DNA from: Croceibacterium selenioxidans
GTDB lineage: Bacteria > Pseudomonadota > Alphaproteobacteria > Sphingomonadales > Sphingomonadaceae
Assembly (NCBI RefSeq): GCF_018599195.1
Contig: NZ_JAHFVK010000001.1
Location: forward strand, 682,001-746,000
Reading direction: 5' to 3'
Length of the DNA: 64,000 nucleotides
The position numbers were made by a program, and so were the translations under genes. Shown here piece by piece: positions 14,968 to 62,710 of this stretch (within the stretch, counting starts at the first letter, position 1; every line of letters begins with the position of its first letter). The notes under the pieces were generated by a model. It did not search any database. It was given only the letters and a program-made list of their open reading frames with translations, and was not told the DNA's origin.

Positions 14968-15128
14968 TTAGCGTAAGCTTGGCCGGGGCTATGCTGGTCG
15001 TACTTGCAGTAGTTGTTCCCGCCCGGTAACCCTTGACCCACCGGGGCAAAGCAACCTCCCGGTCAGGCCTTGCGCCCAAGCGTTGCCTTCTCGACCCCGC
15101 TACGGCGGGCCAGGAGGTATTGGACTGC

Positions 15129-40783: not shown

Positions 40784-40795
40784 GGAGGCGCGGCC

Positions 40796-42394: not shown

Positions 42395-42540
42395 TCTTAA
42401 TCGGGCGAAAGCGTAAAGCCCCCCGAACCGTCGGGCCAAGGCGTAAATTCCAGACTCGTTACCATTATCGAAACCATGCGACTTAACCGAAGCGAAGCGC
42501 GTCATCCCTTAAACCGGACACCGGGTAACAGGGTCTTGCA

Positions 42541-45018: not shown

Positions 45019-45050
45019 CGCTCTGAAATCGCTGGATCTCAAAAAGTTTT

Positions 45051-45065
45051 GTTCCGCTCTTGTTC
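45051..45065 (+). promoter_or_regulatory. LexA (SOS) box before recA
   Basis: GTTC-cgctctt-GTTC, exactly the alphaproteobacterial LexA direct repeat GTTC-N7-GTTC, 77 bases upstream of the recA ATG. A GTTCttatgGAAC inverted pair overlaps its right half. Confidence 0.9.
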
Positions 45066-45141
45066 TTATGGAACAAATCGGATACGAAAGCGTCAGTGAG
45101 GAAATGTCCTGCAACTCTAGGCAACTGACGGAGGCCATGTC

Positions 45142-46206
45142 ATGGCGGCGGAACTGAAGCTGGTAGGAAAGGAGTCCAACGTGGACCGTCAGAAAGCGCT
45201 CGAAGCTGCGCTCGCGCAGATCGATCGCGCATTCGGCAAGGGCTCGGCGATGAAGCTGGGCCAGAAGGAAACCATGCAGGTCGAAGCGATTTCGACCGGT
45301 TCGCTCGGGCTCGACATCGCGCTCGGTGTAGGCGGGCTGCCGCGGGGCCGGGTGATCGAAGTCTACGGTCCGGAAAGCTCCGGCAAGACCACGCTCGCGC
45401 TGCACGTCATTGCGGAAGCACAGAAAGGCGGTGGCACGGCGGCCTTCGTCGATGCAGAGCATGCGCTCGATCCGGTCTATGCCAAGAAGCTGGGTGTCGA
45501 CATTGATGAATTGATCGTTTCGCAGCCCGACACTGGGGAGCAGGCGCTGGAGATCGTGGATACGCTCGTGCGTTCGAACGCGATCGACGTGCTGGTGGTC
45601 GACTCGGTGGCCGCGCTGGTGCCGCGGGCGGAAATCGAAGGCGAGATGGGCGATTCGCACGTCGGCCTCCAGGCCCGCCTGATGAGCCAGTCACTGCGTA
45701 AGCTGACCGGTTCGATCAGCCGCTCGCGCTGCATGGTGATCTTCATCAACCAGCTGCGCATGAAGATCGGCGTGATGTACGGCAATCCGGAAACCACGAC
45801 CGGCGGAAACGCGCTGAAGTTCTATGCCAGCGTTCGCCTCGACATCCGCCGCACCGGGCAGATCAAGGAGCGCGACGAAATCATCGGCAACGCCACGCGC
45901 GTGAAGGTGGTGAAGAACAAGGTCGCTCCGCCGTTCAAGCAGGTCGAATTCGACATAATGTACGGCGAAGGCATCTCGAAGATCGGTGAGATCCTCGACC
46001 TTGGCGTCAAGGCGGGCATCGTCGAGAAATCGGGCAGCTGGTTCTCCTACGACAGCATTCGCATCGGCCAGGGCCGGGAGAACGCCAAGCAGTATCTCAA
46101 GGACAATCCCGAAGTTTGCGACAGGCTGGAAGCTGCGATCCGCAGCCGCACCGACCAGGTCGCCGAGGAGATGATGTCGGGTCCGGACGCGGACGACGAT
46201 ATCTGA
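45142..46206 (+). CDS. recA: RecA recombinase
   Basis: 354 residues, normal length. [14 protein letters not shown] is Walker [11 protein letters not shown] the Walker B region, and [20 protein letters not shown] covers DNA loops L1-L2. It promotes strand exchange in recombinational repair and activates cleavage of LexA-type repressors, which would include the CI-like repressor at 59103 in this window. Preceded by an SOS box; start has GGAGG 7 bases upstream. Confidence 0.98.
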
Positions 46207-46356
46207 TCCTCTAGAGGCGCCACTCGTTCGCGGATTGGCGCTTCCGGAACCGGAGCCGGCACGGTCGACCCTACGGGGCCCGCGCCGGCTTCTTCGCATT
46301 CGATTTAAGTTAGCCTATCACCGCGTTGCGACGGTAGCCTGATGATAGGACAGCGA

Positions 46357-47199
46357 ATGCAAACGAACGGCGCGACGGTCGGAGGAGACGAGTGGAAGGG
46401 CCGGACCGGCGATAGCTGGGCCGCGGAATGGAAGCGCACTGATCGTAGTTTCGGGGTCTTGACCGAACGCTTGCTTCAACGGGCTCGCAATCTTGCCTGC
46501 GATGTGGTGCTGGATATCGGCTGCGGAGCAGGAGAACTCTCGCTGGCACTAGCTCGCATGCGTGCCGATACCAGGGTTACCGGTGTCGATATTTCGCCGC
46601 AGCTTCTCGAGATCGCGAGAGATCGTGCTCGCAACCTTGGCAATGTCACGTTCGAACTTGCCGATGCAGGCGTCTGGCAGCCCGGAGAATCACTGGCCCC
46701 CGATTTGCTCGTCTCGCGTCACGGGGTCATGTTTTTTGACGACCCGGTTGCCGCCTTTACTCATCTTCGCGGCATTGCGGCGCCGGATGCCGACCTCCTG
46801 TTTTCCTGTTTCCGCACCTGGGAAGAGAACCCTGTCTTCCGCAGCGTCACTCGGCTGCTCCCGATCGAGGTCCCTCCACCCGCCCCCGGCGCGCCCGGGC
46901 CCTTCGCCTTTAGCGATCGCACTTACGTCGAAGGCGTTCTCACGGCGGCCGGATGGCGAAACGTCGCGTTCGAACCCTATGATTTTGCGATGATAGTGGG
47001 GGCCGGCGCCGATCCTGTCGAAGATGCCGCGTCCTACTTCACCTCCATCGGTGGCGCGGCGCGAGCTTCGCGGGAACTTGCGCCGCCAGCCCGCGAATCC
47101 TTTATCGAGCGGGTAAGGGAGCTCGCGCGTGCCAACCTGCGCGAGGGCATAGTGTCGTTGCGAGCCGGGGTCTGGATTGTCACGGCGCGAGGCCAATAG
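46357..47199 (+). CDS. Class I SAM-dependent methyltransferase
   Basis: 280 residues from the ATG at 46357, with AGGA 6 bases upstream; an earlier ATG at 46342 is in frame. DVVLDIGCGAGELSLAL is the SAM loop, GVDISPQLLEIARDRA motif II. The C-terminal half has FRTWEENPVFRSV and FAFSDRTYVEGVL, seen in small-molecule methyltransferases of this group. Substrate unknown. Lies between recA and alaS, 92 bases before alaS, and appears independently transcribed. Confidence 0.85.
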   Translation: MQTNGATVGGDEWKGRTGDSWAAEWKRTDRSFGVLTERLLQRARNLACDVVLDIGCGAGELSLALARMRADTRVTGVDISPQLLEIARDRARNLGNVTFELADAGVWQPGESLAPDLLVSRHGVMFFDDPVAAFTHLRGIAAPDADLLFSCFRTWEENPVFRSVTRLLPIEVPPPAPGAPGPFAFSDRTYVEGVLTAAGWRNVAFEPYDFAMIVGAGADPVEDAASYFTSIGGAARASRELAPPARESFIERVRELARANLREGIVSLRAGVWIVTARGQ

Positions 47200-47291
47200 C
47201 GCGCTCTTTTCGCACCATCGGCGGACACGTTCTCAGTTTCCAGCCTATTCCGCTTGTTTCGCCTCGCGGTGCGCCCTAATTCGCAACTCCC

Positions 47292-49961
<2,670 letters not shown>

Positions 49962-49970
49962 GGCAGCCCG

Positions 49971-50144
49971 CTAGCGACGACGCGCGGCAGCTCCGGATTC
50001 CGGTTCGCTACCGCGCGGCATGTCGCCGTGCCCCTTGAAGTCATCCTCACCACGCTGACGGCCCTTGATCGTGCCGTATTGCTCGCCGGTCTGGTTTTGC
50101 GGCTTCATTTTCGTCTGGTTCTGCGGTTCGTTGCCGTCTTTCAT
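49971..50144 (-). CDS. Small hydrophilic protein (57 aa), unknown
   Basis: 57 codons: MKDGNEPQNQTKMKPQNQTG, then EQYGTIKGRQRGEDDFKGHGDMPRG and an Ala/Arg tail. Preceded by AAGGAGA 7 bases before the ATG, one of the best ribosome sites in the window, which supports a true gene. Two tandem QNQT units. No membrane helix, no signal peptide. Similar short Gln/Asn/Lys proteins occur beside alaS in relatives as far as I recall. Function unknown. Confidence 0.7.
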   Translation of the reverse strand: MKDGNEPQNQTKMKPQNQTGEQYGTIKGRQRGEDDFKGHGDMPRGSEPESGAAARRR

Positions 50145-50241
50145 CGGAAGTCTCCTTCACGATGGCAACGGCTTTCGGCCTCAGTTGGGTCCAGCAAGGG
50201 CGGTGAACCGGTCGGGCGCCTGGGCCGGTTGAGAGCGCCCC

Positions 50242-52005
50242 TCAGCTTTCGGCCACGCGGGTTCGCAGCATCGGTTTTTGCGAAAGCTCGCCGCTTTCCA
50301 TGATCTGTTCGCGAAACTCGTCACGCTTTTCGTGGATCGAGGCGATGACCGGGCCCATGGCGACACCCAGGTCGACCAGCACGGCCTCCGACAATTGCAA
50401 CGAGGCTTCCAGCGTTTCCGGAACGGCCGTGCTCGCGCCCGCACGATAAAGTTCGGCCGCGTGGTTCGGATCGCGGGCCCGGGCGATGATCGGCAGCTCG
50501 GGATAGGCGGCGCGTAGCTTGCGGGTGATGCGCTGGGCGAGTACCGGCTCGTCCATGGTCAGGATAACCGCGGGTGCCGTGGGGAGCCCAAGCCTCACCA
50601 GGGTTTCCATGCGGGCAGCGTTGCCGAATATCGCGTGATACCCCTCGCGCCGGCAGCGGTTGACCAGTTCGGAGTCTGCGTCGATCGCGACGTAGAGCTT
50701 GCCATGTCGCGTCAGCATCTGCGCGACCAGCCGTCCGACGCGCCCGCAACCGAGGATGATCGCGCGCGGCTCGTCGCTGTCGTAGTCGTCCGCTGCTCCG
50801 GCAGAGGTCGGTTCCATCCTGCGCGCGATCAACCGGCCCAGCGAGGCGAGCATCGGAGTGACCGTGAGGCCGATGGCGGTCACGATCTGCCAGAACTGCG
50901 CCGTCCCGGGCTGAATCAGCATGGCAGAGGTTGCAGCGGCGAGTACGATGAGCGTCGTTTCGGACGGGCTCGACATCAGGATGCCGGTCTCGATCGCGGT
51001 CGAACGGCGCGCTCCCGTAAGGCGCAGGAGCACGCCCGTCACGATGGCCTTGAGGAACAGCACGCCGACCACGGCGAGCGTGATCATGCCAAGGTTCTCC
51101 CAGATCGTGAACAGGTCGATCCCCATGCCGACGGTGATCAGGAAGATCCCGAGCGCGAGGCCCTTGAACGGCTCCATGATCCCTTCGATCTCGGTATGGT
51201 ACTCGGTTTCTGCGATCAGCAGGCCCGCGACAAGCGCACCGACGATGGGTGACAAGCCGATCAGCGCGGTCGCAAGGCTGGCACCCATAACGACCAGCAG
51301 CGAGGCTGCGAGGAACAGCTCCGGGCTCTTGGTCCGTGCGGCCTGGGCGAACAGGCGCGGAAGGGCGAGGCGGCCGATCACCATCATTCCCGCGACCACC
51401 AGGACGCCGACCCACAAGGTGTGGAACAAGCCGTCCATGCCCTCGCTGCCGGCGAAGGGGGCCAGCGCGCCAAGCAGGAAGATGATCGGGACGATCGCGA
51501 TATCCTCGAACAGCAGCATGGCCAACGCCGCGCGTCCGACGGGCGTGTTCGTCCCTGCAATCGGCAGGACCAGCGCCGTGGAAGACAACGCGAGCGCCAG
51601 CCCAAGGGCGAGGGCGCCGGTCCAGTATTGGCCCATCATCGAGAGGAAGGCCGCCAGCAACGCTCCGGTCGCGAGCAGTTCCAGCGCACCGAGCCCGAAG
51701 ACGAGCTTTCGCATCGCCCAGAGCCGGTTGAACGACAGTTCCAGCCCGATGGTAAACAGCAACAGGATGATCCCGAACTCGGCGAAAGGATCGAGCCGTT
51801 CCGGATCGGATATGGTCACGTAGAACAGCCATTCGTGCTGGTAGACCAGCCGCCCAAGACCGAAGGGGCCGACTAGAAGACCGACGAGAATGAAGCCGAT
51901 GACCGGAGTGATGCGGAAACGCGCAAACACCGGTATGACTATCCCTGCAGCGCCCAGTATCACGAGCGCGTCAGACATTACCGGGGAGATAGCTTCAGCA
52001 TGCAT
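50242..52005 (-). CDS. Kef/YbaL-type cation:proton antiporter (CPA2) with TrkA-N domain
   Basis: 587 residues. Twelve or so membrane helices in residues 8-395 (RITPVIGFILVGLLVGPFGLG, LLFTIGLELSFNRL, FEDIAIVPIIFLLGALAPF), then a TrkA-N nucleotide-binding domain AIILGCGRVGRLVAQML with Rossmann fold (420-540). Family: potassium or sodium efflux coupled to proton uptake, gated by the cytosolic domain, often linked with electrophile stress. ATG at 52005; MSDALVILGA at residue 10 is an alternative. Head-to-head with the next gene, with almost no space between. Confidence 0.92.
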   Translation of the reverse strand: MHAEAISPVMSDALVILGAAGIVIPVFARFRITPVIGFILVGLLVGPFGLGRLVYQHEWLFYVTISDPERLDPFAEFGIILLLFTIGLELSFNRLWAMRKLVFGLGALELLATGALLAAFLSMMGQYWTGALALGLALALSSTALVLPIAGTNTPVGRAALAMLLFEDIAIVPIIFLLGALAPFAGSEGMDGLFHTLWVGVLVVAGMMVIGRLALPRLFAQAARTKSPELFLAASLLVVMGASLATALIGLSPIVGALVAGLLIAETEYHTEIEGIMEPFKGLALGIFLITVGMGIDLFTIWENLGMITLAVVGVLFLKAIVTGVLLRLTGARRSTAIETGILMSSPSETTLIVLAAATSAMLIQPGTAQFWQIVTAIGLTVTPMLASLGRLIARRMEPTSAGAADDYDSDEPRAIILGCGRVGRLVAQMLTRHGKLYVAIDADSELVNRCRREGYHAIFGNAARMETLVRLGLPTAPAVILTMDEPVLAQRITRKLRAAYPELPIIARARDPNHAAELYRAGASTAVPETLEASLQLSEAVLVDLGVAMGPVIASIHEKRDEFREQIMESGELSQKPMLRTRVAES

Positions 52006-52028
52006 TGCTACTCTATGTCAGACGCCCG

Positions 52029-53243
52029 GTGACCGCTGCAACGCACAATCGCGCCGACGTCTTAATCGTCGGCGGCGGGCCGGCCGGGATGATGGCCGGG
52101 CTCCTCTTTGCACGGGCAGGCGTCACCGTGCAAATCTTTGAAAAGCATGCAGATTTCTTTCGCGATTTCCGCGGCGACACCGTTCACCCCTCAACGATGG
52201 AAATTCTCGACCAGCTCGGAATGTTGGGCCGCTTCCTCGTTCGTCCATACGACAAGGTCCAGGGTGCGCAGGTGCGCGTGGCCGGGCGCGACTACACTGT
52301 CGGCGACCTCTCGCATCTCGACACCCCGGCGCCCTTCATCGCGATGATGCCGCAATGGGAATTCCTTGATTTTCTGCGTGACGAAGCGGCGGCCTTTCCT
52401 GCCTTTGCGCTCGAGATGGAGGCAGAGGTCACGGGGCTTGTTGAGGAGAATGACCGGGTCGTGGGCGTTCGGCTCGCCGATGGCCGAGAGCTGCGTGCTG
52501 GCAAGTTGGTGCTGATGACCGATGGCCGCGGGTCGCTGGTGCGCCAGCAGTCGCTCCTTCCCGTGACGCAGCTCGGCGCGCCGATGGACATATTTTGGTT
52601 CCATCTGGGGAAGGCCGACAACCCCGGCGACAAACTGCGTGGTGCTGTCGACACGGGGCGCATGGCGGTGCTGATAGACCGGCGTACCTATTGGCAGGCT
52701 GCCTTCATTATCCCCAAAGGCGGCGCCGAAGATGTGAAGGCTCGGGGCATAGAGTGGCTGAGGGCGCAGATGCAGGCCCTGTTCCCCGAACTAGACCTGT
52801 CTGGCGGGCTTAACAGCACCGACGACTTGTTCCTGCTATCGGTCGCGCTTGACCGGCTTGATCGGTGGTCCCGGCCCGGACTGCTGGCGATCGGCGACGC
52901 GGCGCATGCCATGAGCCCGATCGGCGGCATTGGCATCAACCTCGCGATTCAGGATGCGGTTGCCGCTGCCAATATTCTCGCCGGCCCTCTGGCTCGGGGC
53001 GAGGATCCGGACCCGCTGCTTGCCAAGGTTCAGGCGCGGCGTGAGTTTCCGACTCGGGTCATCCAGGCCGGGCAGAAGCTGGCGCAGGACAACGTGATCG
53101 GAGCGGTACTTTCGGGCGAGCCGATCACCGAAGCGCCCTGGCTGCTCAGGGTGCTCGACCGCTTCCCGCTTTTGCGCCGCATACCAGGCCGGATCATCGG
53201 CCTGGGCGTGCGACGGGAGCGGGTGAGGTCACCGAGGGGATAA
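52029..53243 (+). CDS. FAD-dependent aromatic-type monooxygenase (PHBH fold)
   Basis: 404 residues from a GTG at 52029 (an in-frame TTG at 52005 would overlap the divergent gene). ADVLIVGGGPAGMMAGLLFARAG binds FAD ADP, DGRGSLVR and LLAIGDAAHAMSPIGGIGINLAIQDA are the DG and GD motifs. Like ubiquinone-pathway hydroxylases and p-hydroxybenzoate hydroxylase it would use NAD(P)H and O2. The substrate is not clear. Ends near a small AATCCTCCC/GGGAGGGATT hairpin. Confidence 0.88.
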   Translation: MTAATHNRADVLIVGGGPAGMMAGLLFARAGVTVQIFEKHADFFRDFRGDTVHPSTMEILDQLGMLGRFLVRPYDKVQGAQVRVAGRDYTVGDLSHLDTPAPFIAMMPQWEFLDFLRDEAAAFPAFALEMEAEVTGLVEENDRVVGVRLADGRELRAGKLVLMTDGRGSLVRQQSLLPVTQLGAPMDIFWFHLGKADNPGDKLRGAVDTGRMAVLIDRRTYWQAAFIIPKGGAEDVKARGIEWLRAQMQALFPELDLSGGLNSTDDLFLLSVALDRLDRWSRPGLLAIGDAAHAMSPIGGIGINLAIQDAVAAANILAGPLARGEDPDPLLAKVQARREFPTRVIQAGQKLAQDNVIGAVLSGEPITEAPWLLRVLDRFPLLRRIPGRIIGLGVRRERVRSPRG

Positions 53244-53275
53244 TCCTCCCCATCGCTTCGCGACAGGGAGGGATT
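53242..53275. repeat. Intergenic hairpin between convergent genes
   Basis: AATCCTCCC (53242-53250) and GGGAGGGATT (53266-53275) with CATCGCTTCGCGACA between. Repeat-type hairpin separating the monooxygenase gene and icd, suited to ending both transcripts. Confidence 0.55.
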
Positions 53276-53286
53276 TGGGACGAAAA

Positions 53287-54510
53287 TCAGGCCCAGGTGG
53301 CCATTTCGGTTTCGAGGTTCTCGACAATCCCTTCGAAGAACTGCTCGGTGGTCATCCACGCCTGATCGGGGCCGATGAGCAGCGCGAGGTCCTTGGTCAT
53401 CTTGCCGCTTTCGACGGTGGCGACGCAGACCTTTTCCAGCGTTTCGGCGAAACGGACGACTTCCGGCGTACCGTCGAAACGACCGCGATAGATCAGGCCG
53501 CGGGTCCAGGCGAAGATGCTGGCGATCGGGTTGGTGCTGGTGGCCTTGCCCTGCTGGTGCTGGCGGAAGTGGCGAGTGACTGTGCCATGCGCCGCTTCGG
53601 CTTCGACTGTCTTGCCGTCGGGCGTCATCAGCACGGAGGTCATCAGGCCGAGCGAGCCAAAGCCCTGCGCCACCTGGTCGGATTGCACGTCACCGTCGTA
53701 GTTCTTGCAGGCCCAGACGAACTTGCCGCTCCACTTGAGGGCGGAGGCGACCATGTCGTCGATCAGGCGGTGTTCGTAGACGATGCCCGCTGCGGCGAAC
53801 TTTTCCTTGAAGCCTTCGGTCTCGAACACTTCCTGGAACAAGTCCTTGAAGCGGCCGTCGTAGCGCTTGATGATGGTGTTCTTGGTGGAAAGGTACACCG
53901 GCCAGCCACGGTCGAGGCCGTAGTTGAAGCTGGCGCGCGCGAAATCGCGGATCGAGTCGTCGAGGTTGTACATCGACATCGCCACGCCCGGCGCCTTGAA
54001 CTGATAGACTTCGCGATCGATCGTCTCGCCGTTCTCGCCTTCCCAGACGAGCCGCAGGGTGCCCGCGCTGGGGACGAGGAAGTCGGTCGCGCGGTACTGG
54101 TCGCCGAACGCGTGGCGGCCGACAACGATCGGGTCGGTCCAGCCCGGGATCAGCCGGGGGACGTTCTGGATCACGATCGGCTCGCGGAAGATCGTGCCGC
54201 CGAGGATGTTGCGGATGGTCCCGTTGGGCGACTTGTACATGTCGTGCAGGTCGAATTCTTCGACGCGTGCTTCGTCGGGGGTGATCGTGGCGCACTTCAC
54301 GCCGACGCCATGTTCCTTGATCGCGTTGGCAGCGTCGATCGTGATCTGGTCGCGGGTTTCGTCGCGCTTCTCGATCCCGAGGTCGTAATATTTGAGATCG
54401 ACGTCGAGATAGGGGAGGATCAAGCGTTCACGGATCCATTGCCAGATGATCCGAGTCATCTCGTCGCCGTCGATTTCGACGATGGGGTTCACGACCTTGA
54501 TCTTCGCCAT
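53287..54510 (-). CDS. icd: NADP+-dependent isocitrate dehydrogenase
   Basis: 407 residues, the dimeric type shared with eukaryotes. [33 protein letters not shown] (substrate Ser/Asn/Arg), DRIQ-type [28 protein letters not shown] (metal Asp) and [18 protein letters not shown] (NADP) are present. Oxidises isocitrate to 2-oxoglutarate in the TCA cycle and gives NADPH. Single gene. Confidence 0.97.
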
Positions 54511-54557
54511 ACGCGGGGAATCCTGCCTTTATTTGCCCAGTGGGAACGGCGCGACCC

Positions 54558-55676
54558 TTAGGGAGCGGCAGGCGCCTGCGCAAGCGGCGCATCGGGATGG
54601 ATACGGCTGGCGTCCATCAACCAGTGCAAGACGGGCGGAACCCGCTGCGCCATTGCAACACCTGCCCTGGCCCCGAGCGGGCTTTCGGCGAAAGCGCGCG
54701 CGAGCCCGGCGGCGCGCATGGGACCTCTGGCTTTCCGGGCAAGAGCGCGCTGATAGGCGGGTGCGGTTGCCGATCCACCAGCGAGCCAATGGCGCGCGGC
54801 CATTTCACCGCTGGCGAGCGCAATCGAAATCCCTTCACCGGCGAGGGAGGGTATAACCGCCGCCTGGTCGCCAAGATGGAACAGGCCGGGCTCGGTTTGC
54901 TCGGCTATCAAGCCGTAGGGGACGGCGCCGATTGATTCGATCGGATGATCCCGCCACTCGACGCCGAGCCGTTCGGACAGGGCAGGGCTTCGTGCGGTGA
55001 GCTGTTTGAAGAGTTGCACCGGATGGCCTCCGCAGGCCGCCAGCACCGACTTGCGCAAGGCCAGGCACAAGTTGGCGCTGCCATCCTCCTGCAAGACCAT
55101 ACCCGCATAGCCGCCGCGGAACAGGTGGAGCTCGATCCTTCCGCTCAAGAGCGCCTCCCGGGCAGGCGTGGAGGGAAGGCGCAGGCGCAACCCCAAGGCG
55201 GGGTCGTTCGTCTGGCGCGGGCGCGGGTGGCCGCGCAGGTCATGCTTTCCGGTTGCGAGAAACAGGCCGTCACCGCTCCAGCGCTGACGCTGCCCGAGAA
55301 CGGTCGTGCCATCCAAGCCGCGGGCGGTGTCGACCGCCAGCGTTGCGCCCAGAGCCTGCGCTCTCTGCCTCAGAGCGCTATCGAGTGCCCGCCGGGAGAG
55401 GCTCCAGGCCGGGGAGGGGAGCGGCACCACCGCCTCGGCGCCGTGCGCCAGCAAGGCGAGCCGGTCGACCCGCCTGGCGCCCAGGACTTCGGGATTCACA
55501 CCTAATGCCCGGAGCTGGTCCACCGTTCGCCAACTGAGGAAGCCGCCGCACAGGCAGTCCCGCACGTCGGCATCCCGGTCGAGCAGTATCGGCGCGGCCC
55601 CTTCGCGGGCGAGGGCGATGGCGGCGGCGCATCCGGCTGGGCCGGCTCCGAGAATTAGCGGAGCCGTTCGACGCAC
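54558..55676 (-). CDS. FAD-dependent oxidoreductase of the polyketide cluster
   Basis: 372 residues. LILGAGPAGCAAAIALAREG and ILLDRD bind FAD. The middle matches geranylgeranyl-reductase/tryptophan-halogenase-type flavoproteins, HLGDQAAVIPSLAGEGISIALASG is the GD motif. Last gene of an overlapping trio with a methyltransferase (22-base overlap) and a type III PKS, so it likely oxidises the polyketide or its methylated form, as SrsC does in the Streptomyces srsABC pathway. That analogy is by gene type, not by proven homology. Confidence 0.85.
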   Translation of the reverse strand: MRRTAPLILGAGPAGCAAAIALAREGAAPILLDRDADVRDCLCGGFLSWRTVDQLRALGVNPEVLGARRVDRLALLAHGAEAVVPLPSPAWSLSRRALDSALRQRAQALGATLAVDTARGLDGTTVLGQRQRWSGDGLFLATGKHDLRGHPRPRQTNDPALGLRLRLPSTPAREALLSGRIELHLFRGGYAGMVLQEDGSANLCLALRKSVLAACGGHPVQLFKQLTARSPALSERLGVEWRDHPIESIGAVPYGLIAEQTEPGLFHLGDQAAVIPSLAGEGISIALASGEMAARHWLAGGSATAPAYQRALARKARGPMRAAGLARAFAESPLGARAGVAMAQRVPPVLHWLMDASRIHPDAPLAQAPAAP

Positions 55677-56341
55677 AGCCTGAACGGGAACCAGCGGCGC
55701 ACCCGCGCCTCGCGCAGGCCTTCACGGGCCAGTCGCTCGTGCCACTCGGCGGGTCGGAAGCTGCGCGCTATCGAAGTGTGACCATCGGCGCGGACGATGG
55801 GATGCCAGCGCATCGCCCCGGAGAGGAGCGGCCAGGTGGTATAGGCGAAGCCGTGGCGGTGCAGGTCATTGATGAACCAGCCGGCACCGGCCTCCGCTTC
55901 CATGAAGTGCAGGAAGGCGGTCAGCTCGTCTTCCGTCATGTGATGCGTGACGAGACTGGAAATCACGCAATCGAACCCGGATCCCGCCAGATCGGCGTAG
56001 TCGCCAGTCAGATAGCGGATCGGCGCGCCGAGAGAGGGAACCGCCTCGGCCGCTGCCTTGCTGCGCGAATTGAGGTCGATGCCCGTCAGCTCCGCTACCA
56101 CCCCGTGCTTCTTTGCCCAACGTGCGACCTGGCGCAGCATATCTCCGTCGCCGAACCCTACGTCGAGCAGCGAAAAGGGGCTTTTCTGCCCCACCGCGCG
56201 GCGGAGGAAGTTGAGTGTCGGACGGTAGGCGAAAGTGGTGCGGTTGACTTTGGCGAGATCGGCCAGAACCGCGTGATAGGTGGCCGCGTCCAGAGCCGGA
56301 TCGTCCATCAACTCGTCGGCCTGGCGCCTTTCAGCCAGCAT
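55655..56341 (-). CDS. Class I methyltransferase of the polyketide cluster
   Basis: 228 residues from the ATG at 56341 (MLAERRQADELMDDP), overlapping the PKS stop by 11 bases; a longer frame to 56392 overlaps more. FSLLDVGFGDGDMLRQVARWA is the SAM loop, LTGIDLNSRSKAAAEA motif II, and DCVISSLVTHHMTEDEL motif IV-V. Small-molecule methyltransferase. Position in the operon points to methylation of a phenolic polyketide product. Confidence 0.85.
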   Translation of the reverse strand: MLAERRQADELMDDPALDAATYHAVLADLAKVNRTTFAYRPTLNFLRRAVGQKSPFSLLDVGFGDGDMLRQVARWAKKHGVVAELTGIDLNSRSKAAAEAVPSLGAPIRYLTGDYADLAGSGFDCVISSLVTHHMTEDELTAFLHFMEAEAGAGWFINDLHRHGFAYTTWPLLSGAMRWHPIVRADGHTSIARSFRPAEWHERLAREGLREARVRRWFPFRLCVERLR

Positions 56342-57404
56342 CGCCTTCAGTCCAGCCGAACCGCAGGCCTTCCATCGCGAGGCCGGGCCCAAAAGCGATC
56401 GCGATGCCGGTGCGGGGCTTTTCTTCCATCAGTTTCTTGAGCACGAACATGACCGTCGCCGAGGACATGTTGCCGCAGTTCTGCAGCACCTCGCGCGAGG
56501 CGGTGAGCTTCTCCGGCGGCAGTTGGAGCCCGCGTTCAACGGCATCCACGATCGATCGCCCGCCGGGGTGAACCGCCCAGGCATCGATCTCGGCAACGGA
56601 TCTGCCCTCGGTTACCGAGTTGGCGACAGTCTCATCGCTCAGCGCCTCGGCGAGGCGAAATGGCACCTCCCCGGAGAGATGCATGGCAAAACCCGTGTCG
56701 CCAATGGTCCATGTGATTAGGTCGTGGCTGTCCTCGAGCGTCAGCGAAAGCCCCTCGCCAAGCGCAAGGCCGTCACCTTCGCCGCTGACGATCGCTGCGG
56801 CCGCGCCGTCGGCAAACTGGGCCATGGCGAGCAAGCGCTCAAGCTTGTCGGTCGGCTGGAGATGCAAGGTGCAGAGCTCAACCGAGATCACGAGCACTCG
56901 CGCCTTGGGATCGGAGCGGACCAGGTGCCCGGCGGTACGCAGAGCCGTGACACCTGCGTAACAGCCCATGAAGCCTACCACGACACGCTCGACTGTGGGA
57001 GCAAGGCCTAGGCGCCGGGCGATGACCTGATCCAGACCGGGAGCCATGAAGCCGGTGCAGCTTGCCACCACCAGGTGCGTTACATCGCCAACCGGCCCCA
57101 ATCCGGCAATCGCTTCCAGCGCGAGCTTCGGCGCTTCCCGGGCATAGACCTCCATCCGTGAAAGCGTTCCTGGCGCTTCCGGCGTATCGTAGAAGCTTCC
57201 TTCGGCCTGATAGGTCTCGGCATTGGAGAGAACGGTGAAACGCCGCCCGATGCCCGACCGCTGCAACATCCGTTCCAGCAAGGCGGCCTCGCGGTGACCT
57301 TCGAGCTGGCGCAAGGCCCAGGCGTTGTAAGTCGCATCGCATTCGCTAGCCGGCAGAGCGCAGGCAATCGCGTTGATTCGCGGCACGGTTTGGCCGGAGA
57401 CCAT
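56331..57404 (-). CDS. Type III polyketide synthase (chalcone/stilbene-synthase family)
   Basis: 357 residues. Catalytic triad visible: Cys148 (GFMGCYAGV), His279 (WAVHPGG) and Asn312 (CGNMSSAT). VVASCTGFMAPGLDQVIARR and GLAMEGLRFGW are standard. The enzyme extends an acyl-CoA starter with malonyl-CoA and cyclises it, making resorcinols, pyrones or phloroglucinols without an acyl carrier protein. Starter cannot be read; long-chain starters are usual for bacterial enzymes next to a methyltransferase and flavoprotein. First gene of the three-gene cluster, divergent from nothing, with 57 bases to the lysis operon end. Confidence 0.93.
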   Translation of the reverse strand: MVSGQTVPRINAIACALPASECDATYNAWALRQLEGHREAALLERMLQRSGIGRRFTVLSNAETYQAEGSFYDTPEAPGTLSRMEVYAREAPKLALEAIAGLGPVGDVTHLVVASCTGFMAPGLDQVIARRLGLAPTVERVVVGFMGCYAGVTALRTAGHLVRSDPKARVLVISVELCTLHLQPTDKLERLLAMAQFADGAAAAIVSGEGDGLALGEGLSLTLEDSHDLITWTIGDTGFAMHLSGEVPFRLAEALSDETVANSVTEGRSVAEIDAWAVHPGGRSIVDAVERGLQLPPEKLTASREVLQNCGNMSSATVMFVLKKLMEEKPRTGIAIAFGPGLAMEGLRFGWTEGDAG

Positions 57405-57461
57405 GAACGAGAGATAGGCGTCCGCCGGGGAAACGAAAGAACCTTTGATAGAAATCCCGAA

Positions 57462-57845
57462 CTAAAAGATTCCAAGCACTTTCGGCTTGGCGTTCTCTAC
57501 GGCTGCCCGATCCCTTCGCTCACACATTTCGACTATCCCGATGGCATCGCTCGCGCGGCCATTGGCCTTCTCCAATTGTCCCGTTTGTTCGAGACCGAAG
57601 CGCATCCATGCACGGGCAACCCGGTCGGCATAGAGAACATCGCCGGAGGGTCCTGCGGGGTAGTTCGCGCGGGCCGTATCCGCGGGCGGTGCGGCTCCTT
57701 CGACAGGCTCGCGCCAGGCCGCGGGAACCAGTTCGGTGCAGGACGCCCTATTCGCAATAATTGGGGGAGATCCCGCACAGGCCGTTGCGAGCAGCGCTGT
57801 CGGCAGCGCCAGTATCGGGGGCAGCGCGAACTTGATCCTGGGCAT
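57462..57845 (-). CDS. o-spanin-like lipoprotein (Rz1-like)
   Basis: 127 residues from the ATG at 57845, which lies 98 bases inside the preceding i-spanin-like gene in another frame, the hallmark of phage Rz/Rz1 pairs. Signal sequence with lipobox LPTALLATAC gives an outer-membrane lipoprotein. The mature part is Pro/Ala-rich near the N-terminus (REPVEGAAPPADTA) and then helical (YADRVARAWMRFGLEQTGQLEKANG). Spanins fuse inner and outer membranes at the last step of lysis. Rz1-like proteins are poorly conserved, so the call rests on overlap, lipobox and place in the cassette. The tail is longer than typical Rz1. Confidence 0.7.
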   Translation of the reverse strand: MPRIKFALPPILALPTALLATACAGSPPIIANRASCTELVPAAWREPVEGAAPPADTARANYPAGPSGDVLYADRVARAWMRFGLEQTGQLEKANGRASDAIGIVEMCERRDRAAVENAKPKVLGIF

Positions 57846-58071
57846 GGGTAATCTCCTTGTCGAGAGCTTGTTCGGCCGAGCCTCGCTCGCCGATGGTGTT
57901 GGCGGCGTCCGCTCCGCTGCGGACCGCGGCGTCGCCACGGTGGGTCTCGATGCGGGCGGTGACTTCGGCCCGACGGGCTCCGCTCAGCAGGCCGTTGAAC
58001 CAGAGGGTCGCGGCCGCGATCAGCAGCAGGCCCGTCAGCCAGGCAAGGGGTTTGCGGATAAGGTCAGCCAT
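57748..58071 (-). CDS. i-spanin-like membrane protein (Rz-like)
   Basis: 107 residues. MADLIRKPLAWLTGLLLIAAATLWF is one N-terminal membrane helix, followed by a charged, coiled-coil region (RAEVTARIETHRG...EQALDKEITHAQDQV) and a Cys-containing end. That is the shape of phage inner-membrane spanins. ATG overlaps the end of the holin-like gene by 8 bases. Works with the lipoprotein encoded in the overlapping frame to break the outer membrane. Assigned by architecture, not by sequence family. Confidence 0.75.
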   Translation of the reverse strand: MADLIRKPLAWLTGLLLIAAATLWFNGLLSGARRAEVTARIETHRGDAAVRSGADAANTIGERGSAEQALDKEITHAQDQVRAAPDTGAADSAARNGLCGISPNYCE

Positions 58072-58438
58072 CGAACAGACCTCCCATTTCCGAAACGTCG
58101 CGATCGTGAGCGACATCGGCTTCGATGCCGTCGCGATTGGCCTTGAAGCTCACCCGGCCGCCCGCCAGCACGATGATCACCAGCACGGCCAGGCACAGGG
58201 CCAGCGTACCGATGGCGAAATGGCTGTTGATGGCGAGCGCCTCGACTTGTTGCCTAAGCAGCGCGAAACATTCGCCCATCGCGAACTCCGGACGGTCCCG
58301 GAACCCGCGGGCCCGGTTGCACCAATCCGGCGCGGCGATGATGCCGATCAGCCACCACGCGAAATAGATCAACACGGCACTGGTCACGGCAACGGCGATG
58401 AGAGCCCAGGTGCGGATGGAGTTACGCTGCGCGCTCAT
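58064..58438 (-). CDS. Two-helix membrane protein, holin candidate
   Basis: 124 residues from the ATG at 58438 that overlaps the endolysin stop (ATGA). Helix one at 12-34 (WALIAVAVTSAVLIYFAWWLIGIIA), helix two at 75-94 (IGTLALCLAVLVIIVLAGG), a loop with two Cys between, and a charged tail. Phage holins have this size and often two helices; they open the inner membrane to release the endolysin. It could instead be an accessory membrane protein. Position between endolysin and spanins supports the holin call. Confidence 0.65.
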   Translation of the reverse strand: MSAQRNSIRTWALIAVAVTSAVLIYFAWWLIGIIAAPDWCNRARGFRDRPEFAMGECFALLRQQVEALAINSHFAIGTLALCLAVLVIIVLAGGRVSFKANRDGIEADVAHDRDVSEMGGLFDG

Positions 58439-58983
58439 GCTGCACCTACCCGGCTGTCGAGCCATCCGGCCATGAAGTCTTCGAACCGGGCGTCGGTCCG
58501 CGCCAGTGCGAAGTAGTGGCCGAACTGCAAGCCGTTGAGCGCCTTGAGCATGAGCTGGCGCGCCCAAGTTTCGCCACGGCGGCGGCGAAGGGCACGGAAG
58601 GCGCTGAGCGTTGCCGGACCGACCACGCCGTCCTCACCGATGTCGGCATAATCCTGCCCGCGTCGATTGAGGATGTTGAGTGCCTGCTGGAACCACAGGC
58701 TCGCCCGCTTCGGACCGACGTTCACGCCGCTGTCGATGACCTCTTCGGCCACTTCCGGGTCGATCTCCACGATGCCGAGAAGGCCGGGCTTTTCGATGTA
58801 TTCCCGTCGATAGATTTCCCGCGCCAGAGCGATGGGAAAGTCGCGCATGGGGCCGGAATAGCCGTGAGTGCGAGCAACCTTCTGCGTGATCCCGAACTTC
58901 GTCGCGCCGCCGGGATCGGATGAATGGTCGACGTAGTCTCCTTCGCGCACGAGTATTCCTTCGATCAACTGATCTATCGTCAT
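58435..58983 (-). CDS. GH108-family endolysin (N-acetylmuramidase)
   Basis: 182 residues from the ATG at 58983; an upstream ATG at 59037 lies in the promoter. LVREGDYVDHSSDPGGATKFGIT is the GH108 (DUF847) lysozyme motif, Glu14 being the catalytic acid. The C-terminal VVGPATLSAFRALRRRR is the peptidoglycan-binding domain-3 type. No signal peptide, so release through a holin is needed. It cuts glycan strands. First gene of a four-gene lysis operon. The same endolysin family serves phages and, in Rhodobacter, a gene transfer agent, as I recall. Confidence 0.92.
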   Translation of the reverse strand: MTIDQLIEGILVREGDYVDHSSDPGGATKFGITQKVARTHGYSGPMRDFPIALAREIYRREYIEKPGLLGIVEIDPEVAEEVIDSGVNVGPKRASLWFQQALNILNRRGQDYADIGEDGVVGPATLSAFRALRRRRGETWARQLMLKALNGLQFGHYFALARTDARFEDFMAGWLDSRVGAA

Positions 58984-59018
58984 GGGTCGGTTTCTCTTCG
59001 AATGCTGGGGGTGTCCTG

Positions 59019-59060
59019 CATATATGCGCATACGCATAATTTGTCAAGCGAATTATGCGT
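59019..59060. promoter_or_regulatory. Lysis promoter and palindromic operator cluster
   Basis: On the minus strand TTGACA (59047-59042), 17 bases, then TATATG (59024-59019): a near-consensus promoter for the lysis operon. Overlaid on it are TATGCGCATA (59023-59032, perfect palindrome) and ACGCATAATT (59032-59041) / AATTATGCGT (59051-59060), an exact 10-bp inverted repeat with 9-base spacer. The shared half-site is TATGCG. Likely binding sites of the divergent repressor. Confidence 0.85.
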
Positions 59061-59102
59061 TAGGGGGTAGCGTAAGGCGGGCGCCGGGTTTATGCTCACG
59101 CC

Positions 59103-59708
59103 ATGAGTGGAGACCTAGCGACCCGTATCAAAGCTATCCGCCAGACCGCCGGTCTGAACCAGACGGACTTTGCCGAGCGGCTGGGAACAACCCAGTCGAC
59201 CGTGGCACGTTGGGAAAAGGGTGCGGAGCCTAGCGGGCCTATGCTGCACGCCATCGCCACGGTCGCGAACACGACGGTCGAAAGGTTGATGGGGACGGAC
59301 GACCTGGCCTCCGGTGGGGCGGACCAGATCCCTGTGGTGGGCTACGTCGGCGCGGGCGCGGCCGTGACACCGTTCGACGACTACGCTCCCGGCGATGGCA
59401 TGGCCTTTGTCGAGCGGCCGCCGTTCGTGTCGGGACGGGCGGTGGCGGTCGAGGTGAAGGGCGACAGCCTCCTACCTGTGGCCGAGGATGGCTGGCGGCT
59501 GGTCTACACCGGTGAACAGACGATTGTCGAAGACCAGGTTCTCAACAAGCTTTGCGTCGTGCAGCTCAGCGACGGCAGACTTCTGGTGAAGCGCCTGATG
59601 CGCGGATCGAAACCTCAGCGCTACCACCTGGTCTCGACCAATGCGCCGATCATGGAAGACGTCGAGATCGAATGGGCCGCGCCGGTGCGGGCGATCATCC
59701 CCCAGTAG
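59103..59708 (+). CDS. CI/LexA-like repressor (XRE HTH + S24 peptidase)
   Basis: 201 residues. XRE HTH at 5-60 (RIKAIRQTAGLNQTDFAERL...TTQSTVARWEKG). Then the S24 domain: self-cleavage Ala84-Gly85 in GYVGAGAAVTP, nucleophile Ser122 (GDSLLP) and Lys163 (LLVKRL). All residues for RecA-stimulated self-cleavage are there. Divergent from the lysis operon with the operator cluster between, so it is expected to repress lysis until DNA damage. Ends before a bidirectional terminator. Known family: lambda CI-like and host LexA-like repressors. Confidence 0.93.
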   Translation: MSGDLATRIKAIRQTAGLNQTDFAERLGTTQSTVARWEKGAEPSGPMLHAIATVANTTVERLMGTDDLASGGADQIPVVGYVGAGAAVTPFDDYAPGDGMAFVERPPFVSGRAVAVEVKGDSLLPVAEDGWRLVYTGEQTIVEDQVLNKLCVVQLSDGRLLVKRLMRGSKPQRYHLVSTNAPIMEDVEIEWAAPVRAIIPQ

Positions 59709-59736
59709 AGGGGGCCCAAATGGCCTCGGGCAAAGA

Positions 59737-59761
59737 AAAACCCGCCATTACAGCGGGTTTT
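59737..59761. terminator. Bidirectional terminator, probably the original tRNA-Val terminator
   Basis: AAAACCCGC-cattaca-GCGGGTTTT, followed by a T-run on the plus strand and TTTTTCTTT on the minus strand. It ends the repressor gene and also lies directly beyond the 35-bp copy of the tRNA-Val 3' end, where a terminator for the tRNA would be before the island inserted. Confidence 0.8.
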
Positions 59762-59767
59762 CTGCTT

Positions 59768-59802
59768 CGACCGGATGGTGGGCGTAGGAAGGATTGAACT
59801 TC
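59768..59802 (-). repeat. attL: 35-bp copy of the tRNA-Val 3' end
   Basis: Exact match of 35 bases to 62508-62542, ending in GGATTGAACTTC, covering the CCA end, acceptor and T-arm of the tRNA. Left boundary of the 2.74-kb integrative element. Confidence 0.9.
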
Positions 59803-59847
59803 TCCTCGCCCGCCTATCGCGTTGAAAAGCCCAGAGTATTTTTCTGG

Positions 59848-60306
59848 CTACTGCGGCTCCGTAATAGGAGCTGAGGCGGGGATCTCGGTAATCGGCCGCG
59901 CTTTATGCACTGTGACGGGCGCAGGGTCGCAAAGGTCAACACGCCAGCTTTGGTAAGAGGCGGGCAACCCTTGGCGGTCAGTGATCGTAAAGAACGCGAC
60001 ACCTGCGGCAGTGTACATCCAACCGTTTCTGTCCGCGAATTTGACCCGATACGGGTGGAGATTGAAATCGACCGCTCCCTCAGGTCCCAGCCCAAAGTTG
60101 GTCCGATTCACTAAAACAGGCCAGTCGGGTGGGGCTCCGTCCTCGAATAGCCAGGCGACTACTTCGGCATTGTAGGGCCCCAGCGACAATCCCGGCACGT
60201 GGCCGGAGTTTGCTTCGCGCCAGATTGTGAGCAGTGCGAAGCGCCTCAAAGTCTCCGGGCGCGGGTTCGGCACTTCTAGATAAGTCGTCGCCAACGCGCC
60301 CGCCAA
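59848..60306 (-). CDS. Unknown island protein (152 aa frame)
   Basis: The frame opens at a TTG (60306): ALATTYLEVPNPRPETLRRF, then GHVPGLSLGPYNAEVVAWLF and NRTNFGLGPEGAVDFNLHPY. Soluble, Pro/Trp-rich, no known family. It overlaps the 60276-60482 frame at its 5' end; the two may be halves of one gene split by a frameshift or two small genes. A short ATG-started version cannot be ruled out. Codon use is less GC-biased at third positions than the core genes. Confidence 0.45.
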   Translation of the reverse strand: MAGALATTYLEVPNPRPETLRRFALLTIWREANSGHVPGLSLGPYNAEVVAWLFEDGAPPDWPVLVNRTNFGLGPEGAVDFNLHPYRVKFADRNGWMYTAAGVAFFTITDRQGLPASYQSWRVDLCDPAPVTVHKARPITEIPASAPITEPQ

Positions 60307-60482
60307 GTCTCCGACACATCGCGCACGAACTCGATTGCATACTTGTCCACTGCGGATGTCGCCGCTTCATGCGGCCCGCAGAGGATTTCGTCAGTGAACA
60401 TTCCACCCTGGCTAGGCTTGGCCCCTTTGAAATGCCTCGAACCAGCAATGATATGCGGCGCGCCCACCCTTACCGATACCAA
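60276..60482 (-). CDS. Short unknown frame, possible 5' part of the next gene
   Basis: 68 codons from a TTG, or 41 from the internal ATG (MFTDEILCGPHEAATSAVDK). It stops at 60276, overlapping the start of the 152-aa frame. No known family. Either a separate small gene or the N-terminal piece of a frameshifted gene. Confidence 0.3.
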   Translation of the reverse strand: MVSVRVGAPHIIAGSRHFKGAKPSQGGMFTDEILCGPHEAATSAVDKYAIEFVRDVSETWRARWRRLI

Positions 60483-60491
60483 TCCCCCTTC

Positions 60492-61475
60492 TCAGGTAGG
60501 TAGGTCGACCTTCCGCACAGCGATACTCAGTTCTGGCAGCATCTCAATCCGGGTCACTGTCCTAAGTGCTCGCAGGCCGCTATAGACCAAGTCTTTGGAT
60601 CGCTGGGGCCGGCGACCTTCCGATGCTTTGGCGTGCCAGAGTTGTAGCCGATCCTGCATGCCCATCCGTGTAGGCGGAAGAAATTGGGCACCTGGGCCCA
60701 AAATCTTAGAAACCTCGCGTATGCTGCCGCCGCGAATGCCGGCACGGAGCATGTCTGTCCAGGTTCTGCCGCGCCAATTGGGGCCGCCCGCAACATTGAT
60801 AACCGCGTGCGCGAGCTTGCTTGGTAGATAGTTAATTAACGGCAGCCCAGTGGTGTGTGTTTCAATCGGAAAGAAGCGGTGCGGCGTTTCGTAGATGAAC
60901 AACGTTCCATTCGGCCTAAGACGTTCCCATAGCATCGGCAGCAGGGCTTTCCGCTCATTCGGCAGCAGGTGCTCAAGAACCGCCGATAGGTTCACTACAT
61001 CGAACGTACCGATACCTTCGGGCAGACTATCAGGAGACGGGGAGACGAGCATCTTCATATTGGGAAGGCCGTAAAAATCGGCGCGCGCCTTCGCGAGATC
61101 GACAAGCATCGGGTCGAGTTCGACACCGACAATTTCTGCGTCCCGATAAGTGCGGGCCAGGATGGAGGTCGACGCGCCAGAGCCGCAGCCGAAATCGAGA
61201 ACTCGGGCATTCCTCATCTCTCCAGGATCGACGAACGGAAGTGTCCCCCATTTGATGGTGCGCTGGACGTATGCCGGGTCTTCGTCGCGTGCGATTTCGT
61301 CGGCAAACCAGACCGGGCCTTTGACTTCGATGAGTTTCCGTATCAGCGGCAGCGGGTAATAAGTATCGATCTGCGGAAACGGAACATAGCCCGGCGCTTC
61401 GATCGATATGCGTTTTTGCGGACCAATCGGTACGACAGAAACGCGAACGTTGTGCTTGTCGTAGATAACTTCCAC
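60492..61475 (-). CDS. Class I SAM-dependent methyltransferase (island)
   Basis: 327 residues from a GTG at 61475. ARVLDFGCGSGASTSILARTY is the SAM loop, EIVGVELDPMLVDLAKARAD motif II, FDVVNLSAVLEHLLPNERKAL and GTLFIYETPHRFFPIETHTT are typical of glycan or lipid methyltransferases linked to surface polysaccharides. Substrate unknown. It is the only intact, clearly functional gene inside the tRNA-Val element. A weak palindrome AGCTTAAGCT lies just upstream. Confidence 0.8.
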   Translation of the reverse strand: MEVIYDKHNVRVSVVPIGPQKRISIEAPGYVPFPQIDTYYPLPLIRKLIEVKGPVWFADEIARDEDPAYVQRTIKWGTLPFVDPGEMRNARVLDFGCGSGASTSILARTYRDAEIVGVELDPMLVDLAKARADFYGLPNMKMLVSPSPDSLPEGIGTFDVVNLSAVLEHLLPNERKALLPMLWERLRPNGTLFIYETPHRFFPIETHTTGLPLINYLPSKLAHAVINVAGGPNWRGRTWTDMLRAGIRGGSIREVSKILGPGAQFLPPTRMGMQDRLQLWHAKASEGRRPQRSKDLVYSGLRALRTVTRIEMLPELSIAVRKVDLPT

Positions 61476-61531
61476 CGACCTAGCTTAAGCTGGGTTCGTC
61501 GCTAAAACAACTTATCCGAAATTCGCTTTGC

Positions 61532-61849
61532 TCAGGGCGCCGAGTCATTCCGAGCTAGGGGTGGTTTCTCCACCGACCCCGACGCTGTCGACGACGCTCG
61601 CGCCACCTTCGGACCATCAGGTAGACGATTGACAGCCCGGCAATCGCCAGGACGGCGATAAGCCCGTATGCTACGAGGAGGCGAACTTCCACATTCCGGC
61701 GCATACCTGAGCGCAGTCGTATCAACAAGCAGCCGGGTGTCCTGGTGGGAGAAGATCTCGGCCGGCGCATTGCTGGCAGCGAGTTCGACCGCGTTGAACA
61801 GGTTTGCAACCTCGGCGGTCGTCTTGGTCATGCGGTAGAGGTTGCACAT
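61532..61849 (-). pseudogene. Truncated SRAP (YedK/HMCES-like) gene
   Basis: Residues 1-37 (MCNLYRMTKTTAEVANLFNA and on) are the N-terminus of SOS-response-associated peptidases, which link Cys2 to abasic sites in single-stranded DNA. Cys2 is present, but the sequence after about 61739 no longer resembles the family and the frame ends at 105 residues instead of about 220. A broken fragment. Confidence 0.7.
61555..61704 (-). CDS. Small single-pass membrane protein (49 aa), tentative
   Basis: MRRNVEVRLLVAYGLIAVLA then GLSIVYLMVRR and an Arg-rich tail: one membrane helix with a basic cytosolic end. It overlaps the SRAP remnant in another frame. Ribosome site is weak (CAGG near the ATG), so it may be chance. 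Confidence 0.35.
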   Translation of the reverse strand: MRRNVEVRLLVAYGLIAVLAIAGLSIVYLMVRRWRERRRQRRGRWRNHP

Positions 61850-61894
61850 TGGGGCGGGCTCGCCCCGGCGGTCGTCGCTGTCAACCGCGAGACC

Positions 61895-62393
61895 CTAAAG
61901 CTCGTACCGCGGGATGCGTTCAATCGCGTCCCGAATCGGGGCCACCGGAAATCCCCCGTACTGTCCTCCCTCATTTCCAGGGGCGTGGCCCTGTATGCGG
62001 TCAGCAACGTCCTTGGGGATACCAGCGCCACGAGCGGCGGTCTTGAAGGTGTGGCGCCAGCAATGGTTAGGCTGGGGGGCGGTTATGCCCAGAGCCAGGA
62101 CCCAATCACCGACACGCCTGCTTATCTGCTCGGGCGTTCTCCCGAACAGCGGCCCATCAGGCTTGCCCTTAACGAAGTCTAGGAAGCCGAGTTCGATTAG
62201 ATGCGATATGGATAGGCACCTGTCGAGCCTTGCGGTTCTTGATGGGGCCTGCGTCAGGGGTAAGCCGCAGCACATGGACGCCATCAACGGTCATCACATC
62301 CGCCTTACGTAGCTGGGCTGGTTCACCAACCCGCGTTCCCGTGTAGGCCATGAGCCACGGGAGCCACCGCCTGTCATCATCGGGATTAGCCAT
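61895..62393 (-). pseudogene. Tyrosine integrase, 5'-truncated and frameshifted
   Basis: Two frames read one catalytic domain. 62393-about 62205 gives RRWLPWLMAYTGTRVGEPAQL (first Arg) through KARQVPIHI, and from about 62200 the other frame gives SHLIELGFLDFVKGKPDGP and NHCWRHTFKTAARGAG (His-x-x-Arg) through GHAPGNEGGQYGG to RYEL. A single-base indel near 62200 joins them. The N-terminal DNA-binding half is missing. Adjacent to tRNA-Val and reading away from it, as expected for an integrase of the element. Confidence 0.85.
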
Positions 62394-62507
62394 GGCAGCC
62401 CTGAGGATGGTTAGAGCTTGGTGAGGTCATGGGTTCGGTCCTGCTCGCGAGTGTAACAAGCAGTCGTAAAAAACCCCAGCTTTTCTGCGTGGTTGGCAGA
62501 TTTCTGC

Positions 62508-62542
62508 CGACCGGATGGTGGGCGTAGGAAGGATTGAACTTC
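62508..62542 (-). repeat. attR: 3' end of tRNA-Val
   Basis: Right copy of the 35-bp direct repeat, here as part of the intact tRNA gene. See 59768-59802. Confidence 0.9.
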
Positions 62543-62590
62543 CGACCCCTGCGATGTCAACACAGTGCTCTACCACTGAGCTATACGCCC
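62516..62590 (-). tRNA. tRNA-Val (GAC anticodon)
   Basis: Reads GGGCGTA-TA-GCTC-AGTGGTA-GAGC, anticodon stem CTGTG/CGCAG with loop TTGACAT (anticodon GAC), variable GGGTC, T-arm GGAAG-TTCAATC-CTTCC, acceptor TACGCCC, then A and encoded CCA. All stems pair. Full cloverleaf, so functional. Its 3' end is the integration site of the element on its left. Confidence 0.96.
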
Positions 62591-62650
62591 GAACCCATCC
62601 GGTCGATCGGCAGGCGGGCCCTCTAGCGCCCGCACATCGTTATGACAAGG

Positions 62651-62710
62651 GTTCGTTTGGGGGTTCGTTTGGCGGTTCGTTTGGCGGTTCGTTTGCGGGC
62701 TCGTTCGGGG
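62651..62710 (+). repeat. Five 12-bp tandem repeats
   Basis: Units GTTCGTTTGGGG, GTTCGTTTGGCG (twice), GTTCGTTTGCGG and GCTCGTTCGGGG in direct array, between tRNA-Val and cpdR. Open in several frames but no gene is supported. Confidence 0.85.

Follow-up and report, generated by a model that had tools for sequence, protein, structure and literature searches.

The five-gene module described here is probably a domesticated, phage-derived self-lysis switch of Croceibacterium selenioxidans, held off by its own repressor. Within this proposal we infer the cleavage of the repressor, the trigger (DNA damage), the lysis itself and the benefit; the proposal draws on the gene content of the module, its conserved chromosomal position, purifying selection on its genes, a single operator shared with phages and the lack of an adjoining prophage. 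All coordinates refer to the analyzed stretch of 64,000 nucleotides (the window).

Four overlapping lysis genes occupy the minus strand (58983-57462) and diverge from the repressor gene on the plus strand (59103-59708), an arrangement that the preliminary description had reported and that is confirmed here. The endolysin gene (58435-58983, minus strand) encodes 182 residues with a GH108 N-acetylmuramidase domain (67.4 bits in Pfam) and a PG_binding_3 domain (45.8 bits), matches the phage endolysin family phrog_315 (E 3e-35) and has the muramidases 6v3z and 6v40 as relatives with solved structures, bearing out its first assignment to GH108. It is the only GH108 gene in this genome. Since the protein has neither an N-terminal transmembrane segment nor an export signal, it should need a holin. 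Membership in the NCBIfam family "holin-associated N-acetylmuramidase" was rejected (54 bits versus a cut-off of 240). An endolysin 72% identical to that of the module is encoded on a phage-like element of Caenibius sp. WL, a 38127-bp "plasmid" (NZ_CP081845.1; L037/L038, G062:C2). This "plasmid" bears phage-like genes and is possibly an excised or plasmid-like prophage; an equally similar endolysin copy lies on the Caenibius chromosome.

The holin candidate (58064-58438, minus strand; 124 residues) has two hydrophobic segments by hydropathy, in agreement with the two-segment topology first proposed for it, and a 58% identical homologue occupies the same position, directly 3' of the endolysin gene, within a true prophage of G574, which belongs to another genus. 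Searches of Pfam, phrog and NCBIfam placed this protein in no named family, and none of the viral contigs searched carries it. The proposed i-spanin/o-spanin pair also stands: the i-spanin candidate (57748-58071, minus strand; 107 residues) has a single N-terminal transmembrane segment by hydropathy, and the o-spanin candidate (57462-57842, minus strand) is a 126-residue lipoprotein whose lipobox reads LLATAC here and LLATAC or LLAAAC across three species. The latter is 40% identical over 99 residues (E 5e-14) to a prophage protein (G116) whose gene overlaps an i-spanin-like gene 3' of the endolysin gene. The description of the o-spanin gene as nested has to be corrected, as the two genes overlap out of frame by 95 nt and the o-spanin gene is the longer. 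The holin and spanin roles are candidate assignments based on topology, gene order and prophage homologues rather than on named families; with them, a holin, a peptidoglycan hydrolase, an i-spanin and an o-spanin would all lie in one cluster, as in a full lysis cassette.

The repressor (201 residues) had been described as CI/LexA-like, with an Ala-Gly cleavage site, Ser122 and Lys163, and this holds true: HTH_3 and Peptidase_S24 both score above the Pfam cut-off, phrog_4 matches with an E value of 4e-26, and Ala84-Gly85, Ser122 and Lys163 are unchanged in five homologues. The protein combines the DNA-binding and S24 domains and the residues that define this class; by these domains and residues it is also a candidate for Alp-type control of lysis genes through self-cleavage. 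The predicted structure was poor (mean pLDDT 48.7) and was left out of our reasoning. The nearest repressors found, 71% (G004) and 68% (G367) identical, are both in prophages, with IMG/VR copies (L135 and L136). In both prophages, the same operator as that of the module is followed by a Cro-like gene, and most of the remoter phage repressors in IMG/VR have a small HTH gene opposite.

The repressor and endolysin genes are separated by a 119-bp control region with no gene inside. Its operator/promoter block (59017-59064) contains TATGCGCATACGCATA (59023-59038), the inverted repeat ACGCATAATT-n9-AATTATGCGT (59032-59060; imperfect in the related genome G148) and, on the lysis strand, a putative promoter with a -35 element TTGACA (59047-59042), a 17-nt spacer and a -10-like element TATATG (59024-59019). 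Across three species, 45 of the 48 positions of this block are invariant but only 48 of 71 positions in the flanking sequence (Fisher p 6e-4), and a search of the whole genome allowing up to 2 mismatches found one operator site, that of the module. The lysis operon occupies the place of Cro behind an apparent phage early promoter; a search for a Cro-like remnant within the module matched the repressor's own HTH only, and this candidate was rejected. The nearest relatives of the control half and of the lysis half of the module are in different prophages, and a phage early control region was presumably joined to a lysis cassette by deletion or recombination.

In the mechanism that we propose, the repressor would sit on the operator overlying the promoter and keep the lysis operon off. 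Its loss, for which RecA-stimulated self-cleavage at Ala84-Gly85 following DNA damage is the most likely cause, would free the promoter. In related phages this promoter drives the first early gene (Cro-like); here it would directly transcribe the lysis operon. The holin would open the inner membrane, the muramidase would reach and cut the wall, and the spanins would link the inner and outer membranes, so that the cell bursts. The benefit could be cell contents for kin or the removal of damaged cells. DNA damage as the trigger and the dependence on RecA are predicted from the protease motifs of the repressor. Against the switch speak the weak -10 element of the lysis operon promoter, which went undetected in a general promoter scan, and the fact that only three carriers are known.

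These carriers were found among six genomes of the genus: this genome (G000), G148 and the Porphyrobacter metagenome-assembled genome (MAG) G201 (99% complete, 6% contaminated) have the module, and G080, G200 and G202 do not. The carriers are related aquatic bacteria of three species, in all of which the gene order is type III polyketide synthase, module, tRNA-Val(GAC) and response regulator, and the chromosome of G000 is colinear with that of G148 over two stretches, 40004-59802 and 62749-82481. Since the chromosome is colinear on both sides of the module in the carriers, no prophage adjoins it; no structural, replication or integration genes were found beside it, and the only two terminase-like genes of the genome lie far off, one on the same contig at a distance of about 566 kb and the other on a different contig. 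G080 provides the empty site, colinear and without the module, with the start of the polyketide synthase (pks) gene about 67 bp from the tRNA. The preliminary description of a stand-alone module, for which it had suggested a search of related genomes for the same operon by tRNA-Val without a prophage, is thereby substantiated: G148 and G201 have this organization, with flanks free of prophage genes and with no decay of the operon. In the identities of icd and the response regulator, the three carriers group closest, consistent with a single gain of the module in their ancestor.

The module had also been placed next to a tRNA, which is true of the tRNA-Val (GAC) gene (62516-62590, minus strand), except that in this genome a 2.74-kb element intervenes and that the tRNA's own terminator separates it from the module. 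This terminator, between the module and tRNA-Val, is also present in module-free G200, which argues against a simple remnant of a prophage integrated at the tRNA site. We rejected a tRNA-Val-integrated prophage as the origin of the module because of this position and because no att copy was found at its left end.

The intervening element (59768-62542) is a decayed integrated element bounded by perfect 35-bp att repeats of the tRNA-Val 3' end (59768-59802 and 62508-62542). Its tyrosine integrase, broken in two frames, is a mobile-element gene remnant within the window; no structural phage gene adjoins the module. The element also contains a methyltransferase gene that looks intact (60492-61475) and a short open reading frame that begins like an SRAP protein (MCNLYR). 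It occurs in this genome only, being absent from G148 and G201, and is younger than and separate from the module. Just upstream of tRNA-Val is a tandem repeat of the 12-nt unit GGTTCGTTTGGC (62650-62709), and elsewhere in the window Rfam finds a chrB-b cis-regulatory RNA (15041-15086; 43.3 bits, gathering score 36.5). On the other side, a type III polyketide synthase operon (56331-57462) begins 58 bp 3' of the lysis operon on the same strand. A weak hairpin resembling a terminator, where the lysis operon ends (57472-57490, minus strand; z -1.0), is not kept in the other two carriers and was rejected as a conserved terminator; with no convincing conserved terminator in between, read-through from the lysis operon into pks is possible.

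At dS values of 0.3 to 1.0, all three carriers retain an open frame for each of the five genes. The dN/dS ratio is lowest for the repressor (0.04 to 0.07), followed by the endolysin (0.12 to 0.14) and the holin candidate (0.16 to 0.23); the ratios of the i-spanin (0.24 to 0.43) and o-spanin (0.23 to 0.34) candidates are affected by the overlap of their genes. Intact genes at these distances, with dN/dS ratios of 0.04 to 0.43, are therefore not those of a decaying prophage. If the cells had only to keep a lethal cassette silent, selection would be expected on the repressor and not on the other genes; since the lysis genes are also selected, lysis itself appears to be useful.

The use of lysis may be antiviral. 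In one such reading, the host-owned repressor and operator would act as a trip-wire that senses the loss of lysogenic control, through DNA damage or a phage antirepressor, and fires the lysis cassette with early-gene timing, so that infected or damaged cells burst before the phage matures; the repressor would also make the cell immune to phages of the same operator type. We regard this reading as unlikely. A related account, superinfection immunity combined with abortive infection, in which the repressor blocks same-operator phages and an incoming phage that inactivates the repressor or damages DNA sets off early killing of the cell by the lysis genes, also appears unlikely to us. It can call on an operator core shared in identical form with a circulating type of prophage, on the repressor as the most constrained gene of the module and on a lysis operon placed like the early gene of phages. 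However, no defence genes were found, the literature on premature lysis as a defence gave no direct precedent, and immunity would not require a complete lysis cassette.

A self-lysis switch could also release something made elsewhere, as the preliminary description had suggested with a gene transfer agent (GTA) or a tailocin in mind. Release of a tailocin is not supported, no contractile sheath gene having been found in the genome. For the GTA, the initial conclusion that the genome has none, from a negative search with the GTA_TIM model, was overturned by a terminase search and gene scan, which revealed an RcGTA-type cluster on contig C2 with terminase, portal, HK97 capsid, tail tube, GTA-gp10, NCTSP/DUF2460 and Rcc01698-like genes (L067/L068, G000:C2:735841-750840); a CitMHS (citrate transporter) gene lies between its terminase and portal genes. 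Release of the RcGTA of Rhodobacter capsulatus uses the lysozyme and holin genes rcc00555/rcc00556, outside its cluster (PMC3423380), and Caulobacter uses LypABC (PMC13236601). A release device for the RcGTA-type agent of this genome, with its single GH108 gene, was therefore worth testing. Like the module, rcc00555/rcc00556 are alphaproteobacterial lysis genes apart from a prophage (PMC3423380), but no divergent S24 repressor has been described for them, and the module shows no tie to the GTA cluster. Indeed, the GTA capsid gene is present in G000, G148 and G200 and absent from G080, G201 and G202, so that module and capsid gene dissociate both ways, G201 having the module only (as a MAG, its lack of the capsid gene is not beyond doubt) and G200 the capsid gene only. 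The operator, found once in the genome, is likewise absent from the GTA cluster. The module does not co-occur with the cluster in the manner of GTA lysis genes, and we consider release of the GTA improbable. Another part of the genome, near tRNA-Asn, is a cryptic prophage-like region (L065/L066, G000:C1, about 1303-1320 kb) with terminase, tape-measure, tail completion and primase genes, in which no GH108 endolysin was found. No cargo is indicated, which leaves the release of cell contents or the clearing of damaged or infected cells.

The module might instead be a passive prophage remnant whose decay is pending and whose repressor is kept solely because its loss would be lethal. Every part of it is phage-derived, and a deletion joining an early promoter to a lysis cassette could have produced it. 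Nevertheless, loss of the lysis genes would then be free, yet all four are intact in three species, with dN/dS ratios of 0.12 to 0.43. Unselected frames, moreover, close quickly: in neutral simulations (substitutions only, no selection), 0.55% of runs kept all four lysis frames intact at 0.1 substitutions per site, and no run out of 2000 did so at 0.2 or more. The left end, without an att copy, also speaks against this origin, to which we give a low probability.

Bacteria are known to carry stand-alone holin/endolysin/spanin cassettes, the type 10 secretion systems, whose lytic action has been demonstrated (PMC10847048). Like the module, ChiWXYZ of Serratia marcescens and YenLC of Yersinia entomophaga comprise a holin, an endolysin, an i-spanin and an o-spanin encoded on the chromosome outside any phage (PMC10847048). 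They differ from it in endolysin class and gene order, and they have host-type regulators and known cargo, where the module has a divergent phage-type S24 repressor. Secretion by lysis of a chromosomal cargo, possibly tied to the polyketide synthase operon, is very improbable here: a complete cassette outside a phage and pks, methyltransferase and FAD genes next on the same strand, beyond a weak, unconserved hairpin, fit it, but pks is older than the module (module-free G080 has it), no secreted cargo was seen, and the characterized systems are reported to be SOS-insensitive (PMC10847048), in contrast to the CI-like repressor control of the module.

The self-lysis switch has a regulatory counterpart in AlpR of Pseudomonas aeruginosa, the self-cleaving repressor through which DNA damage switches on host lysis genes (PMC7969949). 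AlpR/AlpABCDE and the module both have phage-descended lysis genes outside a prophage and under a repressor, which cleaves itself in the Alp pathway and is predicted from its residues to do so in the module. While Alp acts through the antiterminator AlpA, no AlpA-like gene was found between the repressor and endolysin genes, and the lysis operon, with its muramidase and spanins, would be the direct target. The temperate phages of Sphingomonadales share the operator and repressor type (G004 and G367) and the holin type (G574) of the module; in these phages a Cro-like gene is opposite the repressor and the lysis genes are near structural genes, whereas in the module the two parts are joined and the rest is gone. 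Overall, the module looks like a full type 10-like cassette under an Alp-type sensor, with direct repression at a phage operator and no antiterminator.

If this interpretation is correct, the module would show in minimal and clean form a phage lysis cassette made into a host self-lysis switch, with five genes and a single operator, an empty site in a relative and selection in three species. The joining of lysis genes to an early phage promoter would be a plausible route to such switches, and the module raises the question of what bacteria gain by bursting when no phage, gene transfer agent or tailocin is involved.
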